Shown: in pieces, positions 9,588-30,711 of the stretch | Layout: every line of letters starts with the position of its first letter | How positions within the stretch are numbered: position 1 is the stretch's first letter | DNA from: an uncultured bacterium | GTDB lineage: Bacteria > Bacteroidota > Bacteroidia > CAILMK01 | Reading direction: 5' to 3' | Length of the DNA stretch: 43,243 nucleotides | Assembly: GCA_903829945.1 (NCBI GenBank) | Contig: CAIKRV010000064.1 | Coordinates: 1-43,243 of the forward strand | Position numbers and translations under genes: made by a program | The notes under the pieces: model-generated | What the model saw: the letters and a program-made list of their open reading frames with translations, nothing else | What the model was told of the DNA's origin: nothing | The model's database searches: none

Positions 9588-9658
9588 AAAGTGGCAATTT
9601 ATAGTGATGTAAAGATAGTAAAAAAATTATACTTACAAGAAATATTTACGATTTTTTG

Positions 9659-9666
9659 TATATTTG
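9659..9666 (+). promoter_or_regulatory. -7 promoter box (TATATTTG) that helps place the MbnP-like start
   Basis: An exact TAnnTTTG match ending 20 nt before the ATG at 9686. Transcription would begin near 9670-9673, so the in-frame upstream start at 9656 would not be in the message. This supports 9686 as the real start. Confidence 0.5.
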
Positions 9667-9685
9667 GTTTCCAATTATCAAAAAT

Positions 9686-10516
9686 ATGAATAGTAGGTTG
9701 GCTAAATTTAGTTATTTTCTGCTCCTTCTTCTGCCTTTTGCTTTCTCAAATTGCAGGAAGGATAATTCGACGACGCCAATTATTCCCCCTGCTCCAACGA
9801 TCAATTTAAAATTTATTGCTGTAGCAAATAATGCGCCTTTGGTTTTTAATACTACCATCACCAATGTAAATGCTCAAAGATACCTCATCAATTACCTTGC
9901 ATTTTACGTGGGAAATATCAGATTAATCGGGACCGATAATGTAGAACATAGCATTAAAGACATTGTGCTGGTAAATTTTGATGATAGCATAGCCAAGGAC
10001 GACCCTACTCGTGATCCTTCGGTAGTTGGGACATCTTTTTCATTGACGGGTATTGCCGGAAATTTCAAGGCCATTAAAATGGGAATTGGAGTTCCTGCTG
10101 CTTTAGAACCTGCTCAAAGCGGGAAAACTGATGTTGATTATCCTATTGGTCACCCCCTCGGATTTAATAGAGGGATGTATTGGGACCCCTGGAGTATTTA
10201 TAGATTCGCTATTATTACAGGTCGGGTAGATACCAATAAAGTGAAACCTTCTACCCCAACCTGGCCATTTAGTTATCATACCGGTTTTGATTCTTTATAT
10301 CGTGAAGTTTCATTCTCTGATAATTTTTCAATAAGCAATGGGCAATCTCATACGATTACCATTCAATTAGATGTAAATAAAATATTTTATAACGCTTCCT
10401 ATACCACGGATTTATTTTCTGAAAACCAAACACACATGAGCCAAGGAAATATAAAAGAAGGCTTATTAGGGGTTAAAATTACCAATAGTTTAGTTATTGC
10501 ATTAAGTAAATTATGA
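9686..10516 (+). CDS. MbnP-family lipoprotein (copper-binding protein family)
   Basis: A 276-aa protein from the ATG at 9686. It has a hydrophobic signal followed by a lipoprotein cysteine (C23, FAFSNC), so it is predicted to be anchored in the envelope. The mature part has the MbnP layout: LKFIAVANNAPL, a YLINYLAFYVGNIRL segment and the family block GMYWDPWSIYRF, with Trp166 and Trp169. In methanotrophs MbnP works with the di-heme enzyme MbnH, which oxidises an MbnP tryptophan to kynurenine and so creates a copper site. Here the next gene is a di-heme peroxidase whose ATG overlaps this stop (ATGA), which fits that partnership. The copper role in this organism is inferred. Confidence 0.8.
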   Translation: MNSRLAKFSYFLLLLLPFAFSNCRKDNSTTPIIPPAPTINLKFIAVANNAPLVFNTTITNVNAQRYLINYLAFYVGNIRLIGTDNVEHSIKDIVLVNFDDSIAKDDPTRDPSVVGTSFSLTGIAGNFKAIKMGIGVPAALEPAQSGKTDVDYPIGHPLGFNRGMYWDPWSIYRFAIITGRVDTNKVKPSTPTWPFSYHTGFDSLYREVSFSDNFSISNGQSHTITIQLDVNKIFYNASYTTDLFSENQTHMSQGNIKEGLLGVKITNSLVIALSKL

Positions 10517-11709
10517 GAAGATTATACAGCTCCTTTTTACACAAAAACATGCCGTTTACTAAGATAATGGTGATGTTCTTTCTAGCGCTATTCTCCTTTA
10601 TTTTGGCTTGCAAAAAAAGTCCGAGTGTAGAGGCACCGGTCAGCACCTATACTACCACGCCTTACAGCATTAAAGTTCCTAAAGGTTTTCCACAGCCAAA
10701 TATTCCGGCAGATAACCCAATGACCGTGGAAGGTGTTACCTTAGGCAGGTTTTTATTTTATGATTCTATTTTAAGTTATAACTATAAACAAAGTTGTGCC
10801 TCATGCCATAGACAACAATTTGCATTTTCTAACGGAAATGTACAATTCAGTAAAGGTGCCGATGGTATAAGCATCGGTGATAGAAATGCGCCGGCTTTAT
10901 TTAATAAAGCCTGGGATTTGGAAGGCACCCCGCCATATGGTGGTTTTTTCTGGGATGGCAGAGCTAAATCTTTAGAGGACCAAGCCCTTATGCCTTTGGT
11001 CAATCCAAAAGAAATGGCATTATCAGATGTTAGTGTTGCTGTAACTCGTTTACAATCCACTAATATGTATCCGGATTTATTTAAAAAAGCTTTTGGCAGC
11101 AGTACGGTTACCAAAGAAAATATTGGTAAGGCGATTGCTCAATTTATGCGAATTATTGTTTCTGGAAATTCATTATATGATAGTGTTAAAAATCATATTT
11201 TGCCTGATTTCGTCAATAGCGACCAAAAAAATGGATACAATTTATTTATTCATGATCCGATATTTAAAGCGGACAGCGTGCGCTATCCAAATACTATAGA
11301 GCCTTATAGCGGATTAGATTGTTTTCATTGTCATGCTCCTCCATTTTTCACCCCTGATCCTGCTTCTTTAAAACCATTTATGAATAACGGCTTAACGGGT
11401 ATAAATAGTAGCGGAGACAGCATTACTCTTTTCAAGGTTCCTTCCGTAAGAAATGTATTGCTTACTGCACCCTTTATGCATGATGGAGAATTTGCAAATT
11501 TAGATTCGGTAATTGCACATTATGACCATGGGTATTCCGCTATTCATTCTCCTTATTTATCCGATTTTATGTTTTATAAGCGTTTTGGTAAAAATTCAAA
11601 AATGAAATTAACACCTAATGAAATAAAACAGGTAAAAGCGTTTTTAGCCAGTTTAACTGATTATACTTTAATTACTAATCCGGAGTACAAGAATCCATTT
11701 TTGAAATAA
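10513..11709 (+). CDS. Di-heme cytochrome c peroxidase / MauG-MbnH family lipoprotein
   Basis: A 398-aa protein with two c-type heme sites, C95-A-S-C98-H99 and C270-F-H-C273-H274, and family blocks WDGRAKSLEDQA, PLVNPKEMAL and TAPFMHDGEFANLDSV. A membrane signal and lipoprotein cysteine at C33 (SFILAC) place it in the envelope. The start at 10513 is kept because it overlaps the MbnP stop by four bases, which suggests coupled translation, though Met13 at 10549 would also leave a good signal. Members reduce H2O2 or, like MauG and MbnH, oxidise residues in a partner protein. The neighbouring MbnP gene favours the second role. It ends two bases from the convergent mgtE stop. Confidence 0.88.
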   Translation: MRRLYSSFLHKNMPFTKIMVMFFLALFSFILACKKSPSVEAPVSTYTTTPYSIKVPKGFPQPNIPADNPMTVEGVTLGRFLFYDSILSYNYKQSCASCHRQQFAFSNGNVQFSKGADGISIGDRNAPALFNKAWDLEGTPPYGGFFWDGRAKSLEDQALMPLVNPKEMALSDVSVAVTRLQSTNMYPDLFKKAFGSSTVTKENIGKAIAQFMRIIVSGNSLYDSVKNHILPDFVNSDQKNGYNLFIHDPIFKADSVRYPNTIEPYSGLDCFHCHAPPFFTPDPASLKPFMNNGLTGINSSGDSITLFKVPSVRNVLLTAPFMHDGEFANLDSVIAHYDHGYSAIHSPYLSDFMFYKRFGKNSKMKLTPNEIKQVKAFLASLTDYTLITNPEYKNPFLK

Positions 11710-26699: not shown

Positions 26700-27488
26700 A
26701 TGAATCCTTATCAAACACTCAGTGGTCAATGGGCTGCAGCCTTATTTTCAGGGGCTAATCCGCTTCCGATCAATGCATCTAACTTAAATACTCAAATAAG
26801 CAATAGCCTAATTCAAACTTATTTGCCCAGCGTCCTCCCGCAACCCCCTTCGGCGGATTTAGTGATATTTGCAAATACGCAACTTAACTCATTGGCTAAT
26901 GCTATTGCCAACGATTATCAAACCGGTAGCCTATATACCTCGAATATATTTTCAGGCACTCAAAATACCTTGGCGATGGAATTATTGGATGGTGTTTGTA
27001 AGGTACCCTTAAATTTAATTTCATCCTTTATAGGAGCCATGGAAAGCCAAATTGCTAGTGCTAACCTGAGCGATATCCAAAAAGCCCCATTATATTTTGG
27101 CACCATGGTTGGCGCACGCGCATTTATACAATGGAATGCTGCATTGCAAAGTATTCCCATCGGGGCACCATGGACAAGCTTTTTTGAAACCCAAACAGGT
27201 TTAACTCCAAATCCGGATAACTTGGCAAAAATTCCAATTTTAGTGCAAGCGGCCATTGAAGGTGCATATATCGGCTATTTAAATTTCATGAAACAAAATT
27301 TTGGAAATGCTCCTGATAAAATGAATTTGTGCTGCCTGCTTGGAAGTACGCTTATTAATGATGGTAAAGTATTTTATAATTGGTTACCGGTGCATCCTGT
27401 CATTAATGGTATAGACCCAAGTACTGCATCCAATATGGCCTATACCTATGCACAAGGACAAAAAAATGGCTCCGGCAATCCTAAATAA
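26700..27488 (+). CDS. Unrecognised 262-aa protein upstream of a sensor kinase
   Basis: I do not recognise this family. The protein starts MNPYQTLSGQWAAAL with no signal peptide, lipobox or clear membrane helix. It is rich in Asn, Gln, Ser and Ala, and the first ~95 residues contain no Lys or Arg. The middle reads like packed amphipathic helices (LLDGVCKVPLNLISSFIGAM), followed by an Ala/Gly-rich stretch (TMVGARAFIQWNAAL) and a Cys pair (NLCCLLG). It ends 19 bp before the preferred start of the sensor kinase, so the two are probably co-transcribed. The frame is fully open with codon use like its neighbours. Function unknown; a cytoplasmic or structural role is only a guess. Confidence 0.7.
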   Translation: MNPYQTLSGQWAAALFSGANPLPINASNLNTQISNSLIQTYLPSVLPQPPSADLVIFANTQLNSLANAIANDYQTGSLYTSNIFSGTQNTLAMELLDGVCKVPLNLISSFIGAMESQIASANLSDIQKAPLYFGTMVGARAFIQWNAALQSIPIGAPWTSFFETQTGLTPNPDNLAKIPILVQAAIEGAYIGYLNFMKQNFGNAPDKMNLCCLLGSTLINDGKVFYNWLPVHPVINGIDPSTASNMAYTYAQGQKNGSGNPK

Positions 27489-27507
27489 AATTACTGCTAT
27501 TCATTTC

Positions 27508-30500
27508 ATGATAAAATTAAAACATATGCTTAGAAATACTTTAATCAAGAGTAATCTAATGTATATGTTTTTAATGTGCCTGAGCATATATTCATCCGCT
27601 CAGGATAATATTTATTACAAACGTTTGGGCACTGAACAAGGTTTATCTCAAACCAGTGTAATGAATATTGCACAGGACAAGTATGGATTTTTATGGTTTT
27701 CCACGCAGCAAGGTTTAAATTTATACGATGGATATACATTCAAAATATTTTTGCCGGATGATAGCAAAAATAGTTTACTCTCCTCCCATTTATTTTGTTT
27801 AGCTCCTGATGAAAATGGCGATATCTGGATTGGTACAGACAAAGGATTATCCAAATATAATCGTTTAAAAAATACATTTACTAATTATGTTCATCTGGAT
27901 AAAAATGATTCTTCTATCAGCAGTGGTAGAATTACTGCTTTGTGCCATGATTCCAAAGGCAGATTATGGATTGGCAATGAAAAAGGCATTAGTTGTTTAG
28001 ATAAAAAAAGTGGACAATTTATAAATTATAGTTACCTGGTTTTTAAAAATCGAAAAATTAACGTTAGTCAAGCTAACAATATTTTTGAAGATGCCAATGG
28101 CGATATTTATTTTTCCACACCATTCCAAGGATTTTTTAGAATGAATAAAACCGGGCATATTATTGAGCATTGGGCGTACAATCATATTACTACCGGACAA
28201 TATGCTATTATCAATACCTCTGTAGAAGATTTTTTATTAGATAAAAAAGGAAATATTTGGCTGGCCACTGTTGAAGGTCTGGAAAAAATAAATATTAAAT
28301 CCGGTAAAAAGGAAATATATATAAATAAAGTTGGTGACATCCATTCTTTAAGTTCATCAAATGTTACGCAAGTATTAGAGGATCATAATGGCACGATATG
28401 GGTTGGAACTGATGGCGGATTAAATAAATACTTAGAAAGTACCAATAATTTTCAAGTCTATAAAAAAAGTGAATTTAATACCCAATCTCTTGGAGGAAAT
28501 AATATTATTCACTTATATGAGGATCATCAAGGAAATTTATGGGTAGGCACCTATGATGGAGGTGTAACAGGATTATTTTATCAGCAAAAAGCATTTGAAA
28601 CCTATTCTCATCATGCAGATGATCCGGGCTCCCTGAGCAATAGTGCCGTCAATTCATTTTTAATGGACAAAGACAATAATCTTTGGGTAGGCACCAATAC
28701 CGGAGGCTTAAATAAATTTGATAACAAAACTAAAATTTTTAAGCACTTCATGTACGACCCCAATAATCCAAAATATTCCATGAGTGATAATGTCATCATG
28801 AATATAACGGAAGATAATAAAGGCTTTATTTGGGCCAGTACCGTGAGTGATGGTTTTAATAAAATTGATCCTATTACCAGTAAGGTAACTCAATTTTATG
28901 CTAATCCTCAGCATCCTGAAATTCCTAGTCGCGGACCTGTGTTTACCATTAAGTATGATGCTAAAAATGATTGTATTTGGTTAGGCACTTTTCAAGAAGG
29001 AATGTGCAAATTAAATCTCAGTACCTTAAAGTACGAAAAATATAGAATTGCCCCTAAAGACACTACCAATATTGCAAGCAATATAATTGTGACCAGTGCC
29101 TTGGATGAAAACGGTATTTTTTGGATGGGCACATTAAATGGGCTTGCATCATTCAATACTGAAACAAAAGCCATTAAAATTTACAAAACGGACAAGAAAA
29201 ATAAATTTTCCATCAGTAGTAATAGCATTAACGGACTAAGTTCTTACGGGAATTATATTTGGATAGGTACTGATAATGGGGTTAATATTTTCGATAAAAG
29301 AACGGAGCATTTCAGGAATTTTACCACTAAGGATGGATTGCCTGATAATTTAATTAACTCTGTTGAGGTTGATAATTTTGGTAATGCTTGGGCGGCCACC
29401 AATAAAGGTTTATCCTGTATTTTAAAACCCAAAGGCGGTTTTGCAGTAGATCAATCCAATCGGGAACAAAGGGTGATTATCAAAAATTATGATGTGATGG
29501 ACGGCATCCAAGGGAATGAATTTAATAGTAATGCTTCCTATAAAGATCGTAATGGAATTTTATATTTTGGAGGAATGAACGGTTTTACCATTATTCATCC
29601 GGAATTATTAAAAGATAGCATTGTGGTTCCACCGGTTTATCTTACGGATTTTAAATTATTTAATCATTCGGTTGGGCCAAATGACTCTTTGCACCTCTTT
29701 GAAAATACTTTTACGTTTGCTAAGGAAGTAAACTTAAAATACAATCAAAATGTATTTTCCATTTCTTTTACCGGACTGAATTTTAAAAATCACGATAAAA
29801 TTTCCTATCAATATAAATTGGATGGATTTGACGCAAAGTGGGTAAGTGTAGACGGTGAAAATAGAACGGCAACTTATACCAATTTGGACCCGGGAACTTA
29901 TACTTTTAAGGTTCGTGCCAGCTTAGACGGCATCCATTGGAGTAATAAAGAAGCGAGTGTGCTGATAAATATTAATCCTCCTTTTTGGAAAACCATTCCT
30001 TTCCGAGCAGGTACTATTTTATTTTTGGCGATCGTCATTGTAGCCATTGTACGTTTTTATATTGAAAGAAATTACAAAAAGAAAATCAGTATATTAGAAA
30101 GACAACAGGAAGTAGCAAGAATTAGAGGCAGAATAGCCCGCGATATTCATGATAATATAGGAGCGGAATTGACACGCATCTCCTTATTAACAGAAGTAGC
30201 TAAAATTGAAAATCCGGGTATTAATCCCAATTCATTTAATAAACTATCCGAAGCCTCCAGAGAAATTACCGGTCAACTCGGCGAAATAGTTTGGTCAGTC
30301 AATCCTATGCATGATAATTTAGCCAGTATGCTAAGTTATTTAAGAAACTATACGCTTCATTTTTTAGAAACGACTTCAGTGCATTATGAATTAGACATTA
30401 CCGAAGAAGCTGATGAACGAATTATTAATCCCGAATTAAGAAGAAACCTGTTTTTAATATTAAAGGAAGCTTTGAATAATGCCATTAAATATGCACAGGC

Positions 30501-30711
30501 GCAAAATATTTTAGTTTCTTTTATAATAAATGGAGACTATTATGAGATGAAAATTGTTGATGATGGCAAAGGCATGGATTTATCCAAAAAGCCAAATGGC
30601 AACGGATTAATTAATATGCAGAATAGGATGGATAATGTAGGCGGAGAATTAAATATTATTAGTGCTGAAGGAAAAGGAACATCAATTATTGCAGATGGAA
30701 AATTATACTAA
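27508..30711 (+). CDS. Two-propeller (Reg_prop / Y_Y_Y) sensor histidine kinase
   Basis: About 1067 aa from the ATG at 27508; the open frame runs back to 27448 into the previous gene, but the signal peptide fits 27508 or 27526. About fourteen Reg_prop blades follow (WIGTDKGLSKY, WVGTNTGGLNKF, WMGTLNGLASF and similar), enough for two seven-bladed propellers. Then come a Y_Y_Y domain (YKLDGFDAKWVS, YTNLDPGTYTFKVRA), one membrane helix, and a cytoplasmic kinase. The dimerisation motif is HisKA_3-type (RDIHDNIGAELTRI) with phospho-acceptor His881, and the ATPase shows EALNNAIKYA, DDGKGMD and GNGLINM. Unlike many Bacteroidota hybrid sensors it has no receiver or AraC domain. The separate regulator gene follows one base later. 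Confidence 0.9.
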   Translation: MIKLKHMLRNTLIKSNLMYMFLMCLSIYSSAQDNIYYKRLGTEQGLSQTSVMNIAQDKYGFLWFSTQQGLNLYDGYTFKIFLPDDSKNSLLSSHLFCLAPDENGDIWIGTDKGLSKYNRLKNTFTNYVHLDKNDSSISSGRITALCHDSKGRLWIGNEKGISCLDKKSGQFINYSYLVFKNRKINVSQANNIFEDANGDIYFSTPFQGFFRMNKTGHIIEHWAYNHITTGQYAIINTSVEDFLLDKKGNIWLATVEGLEKINIKSGKKEIYINKVGDIHSLSSSNVTQVLEDHNGTIWVGTDGGLNKYLESTNNFQVYKKSEFNTQSLGGNNIIHLYEDHQGNLWVGTYDGGVTGLFYQQKAFETYSHHADDPGSLSNSAVNSFLMDKDNNLWVGTNTGGLNKFDNKTKIFKHFMYDPNNPKYSMSDNVIMNITEDNKGFIWASTVSDGFNKIDPITSKVTQFYANPQHPEIPSRGPVFTIKYDAKNDCIWLGTFQEGMCKLNLSTLKYEKYRIAPKDTTNIASNIIVTSALDENGIFWMGTLNGLASFNTETKAIKIYKTDKKNKFSISSNSINGLSSYGNYIWIGTDNGVNIFDKRTEHFRNFTTKDGLPDNLINSVEVDNFGNAWAATNKGLSCILKPKGGFAVDQSNREQRVIIKNYDVMDGIQGNEFNSNASYKDRNGILYFGGMNGFTIIHPELLKDSIVVPPVYLTDFKLFNHSVGPNDSLHLFENTFTFAKEVNLKYNQNVFSISFTGLNFKNHDKISYQYKLDGFDAKWVSVDGENRTATYTNLDPGTYTFKVRASLDGIHWSNKEASVLININPPFWKTIPFRAGTILFLAIVIVAIVRFYIERNYKKKISILERQQEVARIRGRIARDIHDNIGAELTRISLLTEVAKIENPGINPNSFNKLSEASREITGQLGEIVWSVNPMHDNLASMLSYLRNYTLHFLETTSVHYELDITEEADERIINPELRRNLFLILKEALNNAIKYAQAQNILVSFIINGDYYEMKIVDDGKGMDLSKKPNGNGLINMQNRMDNVGGELNIISAEGKGTSIIADGKLY

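Follow-up and report, generated by a model that had tools for sequence, protein, structure and literature searches.

An MbnP-family lipoprotein gene beside an MbnH/MauG-like di-heme enzyme gene in a Bacteroidota: a predicted copper site that retains the first of the two typical tryptophans

Copper sites that contain kynurenine and are encoded beside a di-heme enzyme have, to our knowledge, been studied in very few proteins, all of them from methanotrophs. In MbnP, the first tryptophan of a WxW motif is reportedly converted to kynurenine, and a histidine and a methionine are said in the same 2021 PNAS report to bind the copper. The structural reference points for the pair of Methylosinus trichosporium OB3b are 7l6g, which is MbnP of M. 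trichosporium, and 6e1c, whose database description is a MauG-like protein associated with copper homeostasis and which we take to be MbnH of that strain. The product of MauG, the enzyme of methylamine dehydrogenase, is tryptophan tryptophylquinone, unlike kynurenine. MauG is an enzyme of protein tryptophan oxidation, and in CorA/CorB and MopE/SACCP of methanotrophs the gene of a copper protein with a tryptophan-derived kynurenine is co-transcribed with a di-heme peroxidase-like gene; in CorA/MopE two His and a water hold the copper, and the kynurenine lies at a distance of about 2.9 A (PMC3912023). Pairs without methanobactin, such as the initial annotation of this locus described, are no surprise and have been in print since 2013, when Kenney and Rosenzweig reported a conservation of the pair that reaches well past the methanobactin producers in their analysis (PMC3621798); a PF20243 protein is also present in 106 of 149 genomes, that of the present locus included. 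Such pairs are known outside methanobactin makers, and what is new is that the MbnP described here retains only the first of the two typical Trp. Among the titles listed in our literature searches none deals with MbnP of Bacteroidota or with MbnPs that have lost the second Trp, and the 2021 PNAS paper on MbnP may discuss the subject.

The window, that is, the whole stretch of 43,243 nucleotides that we analysed, carries the two genes as follows:

9686..10516, + strand: gene of an MbnP-family lipoprotein, 276 aa (PF20243, 85.7 bits; AF2 mean pLDDT 90; 7l6g at Z 17.2)
10513..11709, + strand: gene of an MbnH/MauG-like di-heme enzyme, 398 aa (PF03150, 160.1 bits; 6e1c at E 6.5e-38, Z 34.1)

Both open reading frames lie where the initial annotation had located them, and its description of their products held throughout: an MbnP-family lipoprotein with a Trp block (W166 and W169), an ATGA overlap between the genes, a di-heme peroxidase with two CxxCH sites, and lipid attachment predicted for both proteins. 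The scores exceed the cut-offs of 27 bits for PF20243 and 25.6 bits for PF03150 (CCP_MauG), the MbnP stop and the enzyme start share ATGA at 10513-10516, and a lipobox-like Cys after a hydrophobic N-terminus (SNC in MbnP, LAC in the enzyme) passed a crude script rule in each case. The MbnP frame reaches upstream to a TTG at 9656, the ATG at 9686 being the likely start, with which the numbering of W166 and W169 within GMYWDPWSIYRF is consistent. Its neighbours are on the other strand, an FG-GAP protein with a T9SS sorting domain on the upstream side and a transporter of the MgtE type on the downstream side, so that the pair forms a two-gene island; these neighbours give it no copper context. 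Promoter and terminator scans produced matches at chance numbers. A sensor protein with regulator-propeller repeats, a Y_Y_Y domain and histidine kinase domains, unrelated to the pair, is encoded at 27448-30711 of the window.

Comparison of structures placed the first protein with MbnP. Its AF2 model was built from a 48-sequence alignment, and all Foldseek matches at E ≤ 0.001, six in number, belong to the six chains of 7l6g (E 1.3e-8), to which VIA-align fitted 206 residues with an rmsd of 2.9, the next entry having a Z of 5.0. The profile of the 48-sequence alignment recovered 7l6g from the PDB sequences at E 4.4e-10, a result that the profile alone gave, since phmmer with the window MbnP or with a WxW-type MbnP (L012) returned no MbnP chain. 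No MopE or CorA chain is among the matches listed in the PDB sequence searches with the window MbnP or the profile, an absence from the listing that does not amount to exclusion. Against TIGR04052 (MbnP_like_WxW) the window MbnP reaches 28.3 bits, below the cut-off of 140, and among 296 genomes of the phylum 73 have a match at E ≤ 0.001 and none lies above the cut-off, so that we do not claim membership of TIGR04052. The window pair is like that of M. trichosporium OB3b in both folds, the first Trp, the His of an HxG motif, the two hemes and a Tyr at the place of MauG Tyr294; it differs in that its genome has no MbnB match, its MbnP has no WxW and a single Cys (C23 of the lipobox) instead of the four-Cys motif named for 7l6g, and both proteins score below the NCBIfam cut-offs. 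With CorA/CorB and MopE/SACCP it shares the placing of a gene for a copper protein, here a predicted one, beside a di-heme peroxidase-like gene.

The residues of the putative copper site, in which the pairing of W166 and H198 with 7l6g was read from the profile alignment, are these:

10175..10177, + strand: M164, candidate ligand two residues before W166; the 106 MbnH-linked rows, fragments counted, have Met here in 85 cases and Thr in 14
10181..10183, + strand: W166, predicted kynurenine site, equivalent of the first Trp of WxW and aligned with the W of GMAWNW in 7l6g
10190..10192, + strand: W169, at W166+3, unaligned with the second Trp of WxW
10277..10279, + strand: H198 (YHTG), candidate copper ligand, aligned with the H of VHVG in 7l6g; 97 of the 103 linked MbnPs have His in this column
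10433..10438, + strand: H250-M251, a C-terminal His-Met pair, candidate ligands of lower conservation; 57 of the 106 linked rows, fragments counted, have His at H250

The initial annotation had held that the Trp to be modified could not be read from the sequence and that an alignment without an equivalent Trp would speak against the proposed chemistry. The alignment does contain this Trp and singles out one residue, pointing to W166, not W169, as the equivalent of the first Trp of WxW. We selected W166 as the predicted modified residue because it is aligned with that first Trp and because its column is Trp in all 103 MbnH-linked full-length MbnPs, the window included. The column is also invariant in the 48 rows of the model alignment, two of which (L002 and L056) come from MbnH-less paralogues, in which the Trp may have been displaced. 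The WxW motif itself is broken in the window protein, which reads W166-D-P-W169 and has P168 at W166+2. We considered whether W169 might be the second Trp moved along by one position and set this aside, the gapless reading with P168 at the place of the second Trp being simpler since the spacing from W166 to Y172 and to F174 is the same as in WxW members.

The second protein was compared in the same manner with the di-heme enzymes, and its heme motifs and the residues that a phmmer alignment with MauG brings out are as follows:

10795..10809, + strand: heme motif 1, CASCH, at residue 95; the first Cys and the His are present in all 109 MbnH-like sequences (109 of 109)
11320..11334, + strand: heme motif 2, CFHCH, at residue 270; the first Cys and the His are present in 108 of the 109
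10951..10953, + strand: W147, from the alignment with MauG; column Trp in 76 of 109
10993..11013, + strand: P161 to E167, from the alignment with MauG; P in 91 of 109 and E in 105 of 109
11521..11523, + strand: Y337, from the alignment with MauG; Tyr in 96 of 109

The enzyme is thus like MauG in family and in aligned key residues; W147, P161, E167 and Y337 fall on W93, P107, E113 and Y294 of MauG, where W93 is the inter-heme Trp and Tyr294 the MauG-type heme ligand. Its best NCBIfam match is TIGR04039 (MbnH), covered over profile positions 1-336 of 336 at 205.2 bits, which is below the cut-off of 362.85. In its model, made from 38 sequences, the mean pLDDT is 79.9 and residues 248-266 and 297-304 fall under 50. 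The closest solved structure is 6e1c (314 aligned, rmsd 2.3), followed by MacA (Z 28.6) and by other peroxidases, CcpA and MauG at Z about 28. These last values, together with the fact that di-heme peroxidase describes the family as a whole, would suit an ordinary di-heme cytochrome c peroxidase that detoxifies H2O2, with MbnP as its electron donor or as an unrelated neighbour. We regard that explanation as improbable in view of the MauG-type Tyr337 that is retained, of the distance between 6e1c and MacA in Z, and of the MbnH-like gene that lies within 4 kb of 103 of the 126 full-length MbnPs in our tree set. The window enzyme is the sole CCP_MauG match in the genome, and hence no ordinary CcpA was found beside it.

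The explanation that we consider reasonably probable is that of a two-gene operon building a copper site post-translationally, with kynurenine at W166, binding of Cu(I) and a role apart from methanobactin. The di-heme MauG/MbnH-type enzyme would convert W166 of the lipoprotein into kynurenine by oxidation, after which the matured MbnP would bind one copper ion, probably Cu(I), through H198 and a Met or a second His (M164, H250 or M251 being the candidates). The physiological role of the pair would be capture or delivery of copper in the envelope and not methanobactin. This chemistry is proposed by analogy with MbnP. A further analogy is offered by CorA/MopE (PMC3912023). Several findings weigh against the proposed operon, namely the scores of both proteins below the NCBIfam cut-offs, the broken WxW, the lack of copper context at the window, the six linked MbnPs without His at H198 and the presence of Trp at the W93 place in only 76 of 109 enzymes. 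The suggestion of the initial annotation that MbnH-type chemistry serves copper handling here is in part supported by homology (the fold of MbnP, an enzyme of MbnH type, the aligned first Trp and His) and by the lack of an MbnB match. Gene order, families, folds, the conservation of W166 and H198 and that missing match were observed, whereas the oxidation, the binding of copper, its ligands and the physiological role are inferences.

In order to place the window protein among its relatives, PF20243 matches were taken from the first 50 of the 106 genomes, and the 97 stretches so obtained gave 104 MbnP ORFs at E < 1e-5. The window and loci similar to its own protein were added, the added loci being biased toward the window protein because they were chosen by that similarity. 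This yielded 130 distinct MbnPs, 106 of them linked (an ORF matching the MbnH profile at most 4 kb away on either strand), and after four fragments were dropped 126 remained, made up of the window itself, 101 rows of the survey and 24 further ones, with 103 linked and 23 unlinked. Trp occupies the W166 column in every linked MbnP and in 17 of the 23 unlinked ones, and His occupies the H198 column in 97/103 and 15/23, respectively; the six unlinked MbnPs without Trp at W166 are also without His at H198. Fisher tests of linked versus unlinked gave P values of 2e-5 for Trp and 6e-4 for His, which overstate the association because the six Trp losses sit in one clade and represent few events, and no significance was reached when His was set against MbnH in an independent-pairs test.

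The 17 unlinked rows that keep W166 bear on another explanation, according to which the copper would be bound by residues of MbnP that carry no modification, W166 being kept for the sake of the fold alone. Five of them have no linked pair elsewhere in the genome within the places examined, as this explanation would expect; the other 12, however, belong to genomes with a linked pair elsewhere, and some unlinked loci stop at the limits of the contig or flank (L127 lies 45 bases from a contig end, and class-search loci carry 1.5 kb flanks). We judge an unmodified site to be very improbable.

The second Trp varies among linked MbnPs. The position W166+2 is Trp in 80 of 103 and is not in the other 23, the window included; in the 50-genome part alone 61 of 81 linked MbnPs have it and 20 lack it. 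The count of 23 may be 24, since L156 (WNWPTSIGGGYHF), which is counted among the 80, belongs with the WPxxGGGYH group by its loop and its place in the tree. A quick tree made without the motif columns requires at least nine changes of second-Trp state among W166-bearing rows and at least five among linked rows, counts that cannot separate gain from loss and that come from a tree in which 51 of 123 inner branches, and also the place of the window itself, are left open. The family includes a clade of 17 MbnH-linked MbnPs (SH-aLRT 100) in which the loop WPxxMGGGYHF or similar replaces WxW:

WPxxMGGGYHF clade: L148, L150, L153, L156, L160, L166, L168, L171, L172, L180, L183, L184, L195, L196, L198-L200

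Given that the WxW loop of the window protein is rebuilt around W166, P168 and W169, W166 might be modified without forming the kynurenine copper site of the M. trichosporium type, the product serving another metal or, as an oxidised Trp, redox chemistry. The absence of WxW here and of the second Trp in the 23 linked MbnPs, as well as the single Cys in place of the four-Cys feature in the 7l6g molecule name, would agree with such an altered product; W166, H198 and the overall fold are nevertheless retained, and we think this outcome unlikely, if with an appreciable chance. A further reading, which we hold to be highly unlikely, takes the first-Trp-only MbnPs as a distinct functional variety: the second Trp would be dispensable for kynurenine, having been altered several times over in proteins that still have the first Trp and the enzyme, and the enzyme that acts on WDPW may oxidise both W166 and W169 or join them in the manner of MauG, giving another cofactor. 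Natural first-Trp-only MbnPs make the role of the second Trp testable, and a large family in which the first Trp and the enzyme persist, sometimes without the second Trp, offers natural variants in which what the enzyme needs may be told apart from what copper needs as ligands.

The six MbnPs without Trp at W166 form, with L204, one clade that is MbnH-less. Its members resemble the window MbnP in being PF20243 lipoproteins of similar length and differ from it in that His at H198 is replaced by Lys or Gln, Trp is lost or displaced, and no MbnH is seen in the stretch. A Trp does occur near the W166 place (MWFGST and similar), and "lost" may be "displaced", since a keep-length alignment sets it on the W166 column in 5 of the 6, with Phe there for L202 and L204. 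A clade that differs jointly at Trp, His and enzyme constitutes a natural negative control, one member of which is in the same genome. This paralogue (G000:C19, locus L188, 3923-4711, - strand) has Lys at H198 and MWFGST for MxWxW, without MbnH in the stretch, and its neighbours are a small HCNGKC protein and one that matches Phenol_MetA_deg weakly, a gene order also found in the same-genus genome (L201). At L185 (80-4686) small ORFs that match nothing in Pfam, one of them with CSIIGCH, and a TonB-dependent receptor come after an MbnP-like gene of this clade; this gene set is possibly a metal-uptake operon. Among close relatives of the window's genome, one of the same family (G003) has a pair whose MbnP loop is WTGMGGYRF, and one of the same genus (G001, 78% complete) has the MbnH-less paralogue alone.

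As to the genomic context, the initial annotation had described the organism as having no methanobactin genes, and this is borne out for MbnB, the family that our search covered: PF05114 has 0 matches in the genome, which is 99.99% complete, and the control search had matches in 2 of 14 genomes. The genome gave no CopC match, which says little, and a single-protein scan of the genome-contig collection found no relative. The census of flanking genes was made on the 76 survey loci with both genes (103 if class-search loci are added), with flank clusters identified from one representative each and a 9-locus cluster and smaller ones left out. It found a YHYH protein at 17 loci, a DACGC-containing protein without Pfam match at 11, ECF sigma factors at 7, a small HCxGKC protein without Pfam match at 6, a multicopper oxidase at 5, and at 6 a protein whose heavy-metal-resistance match has 25.9 bits, below the Pfam cut-off of 29.2. 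These recurrent flanks are a hint that some members of the family have a function connected with metals, but the set is absent at the window.

In an MbnP/MbnH sub-branch (L128, L131, L136, L137, L147 and L162) the pair is accompanied by an ECF sigma factor and by a protein with a weak likeness to heavy-metal-resistance proteins, with a YHYH protein also present at some of these loci. Of 105 MbnPs and 108 enzymes given, 77 and 88 had a lipobox; among these the motif Cys-(x)-Lys-Asp/Glu was counted in 28 MbnPs and 20 enzymes, and a crude test saw no difference in surface-export signal between MbnP and MbnH. A tblastn search of plasmids with L012 returned 2 Deinococcus records. Two loci (L178 and L088) carry two MbnPs each with no MbnH-like gene seen, two of each gene are found at L176, L143 and L159, and L175 has three MbnPs with one MbnH-like gene; at such tandem loci a single enzyme may serve more than one substrate.
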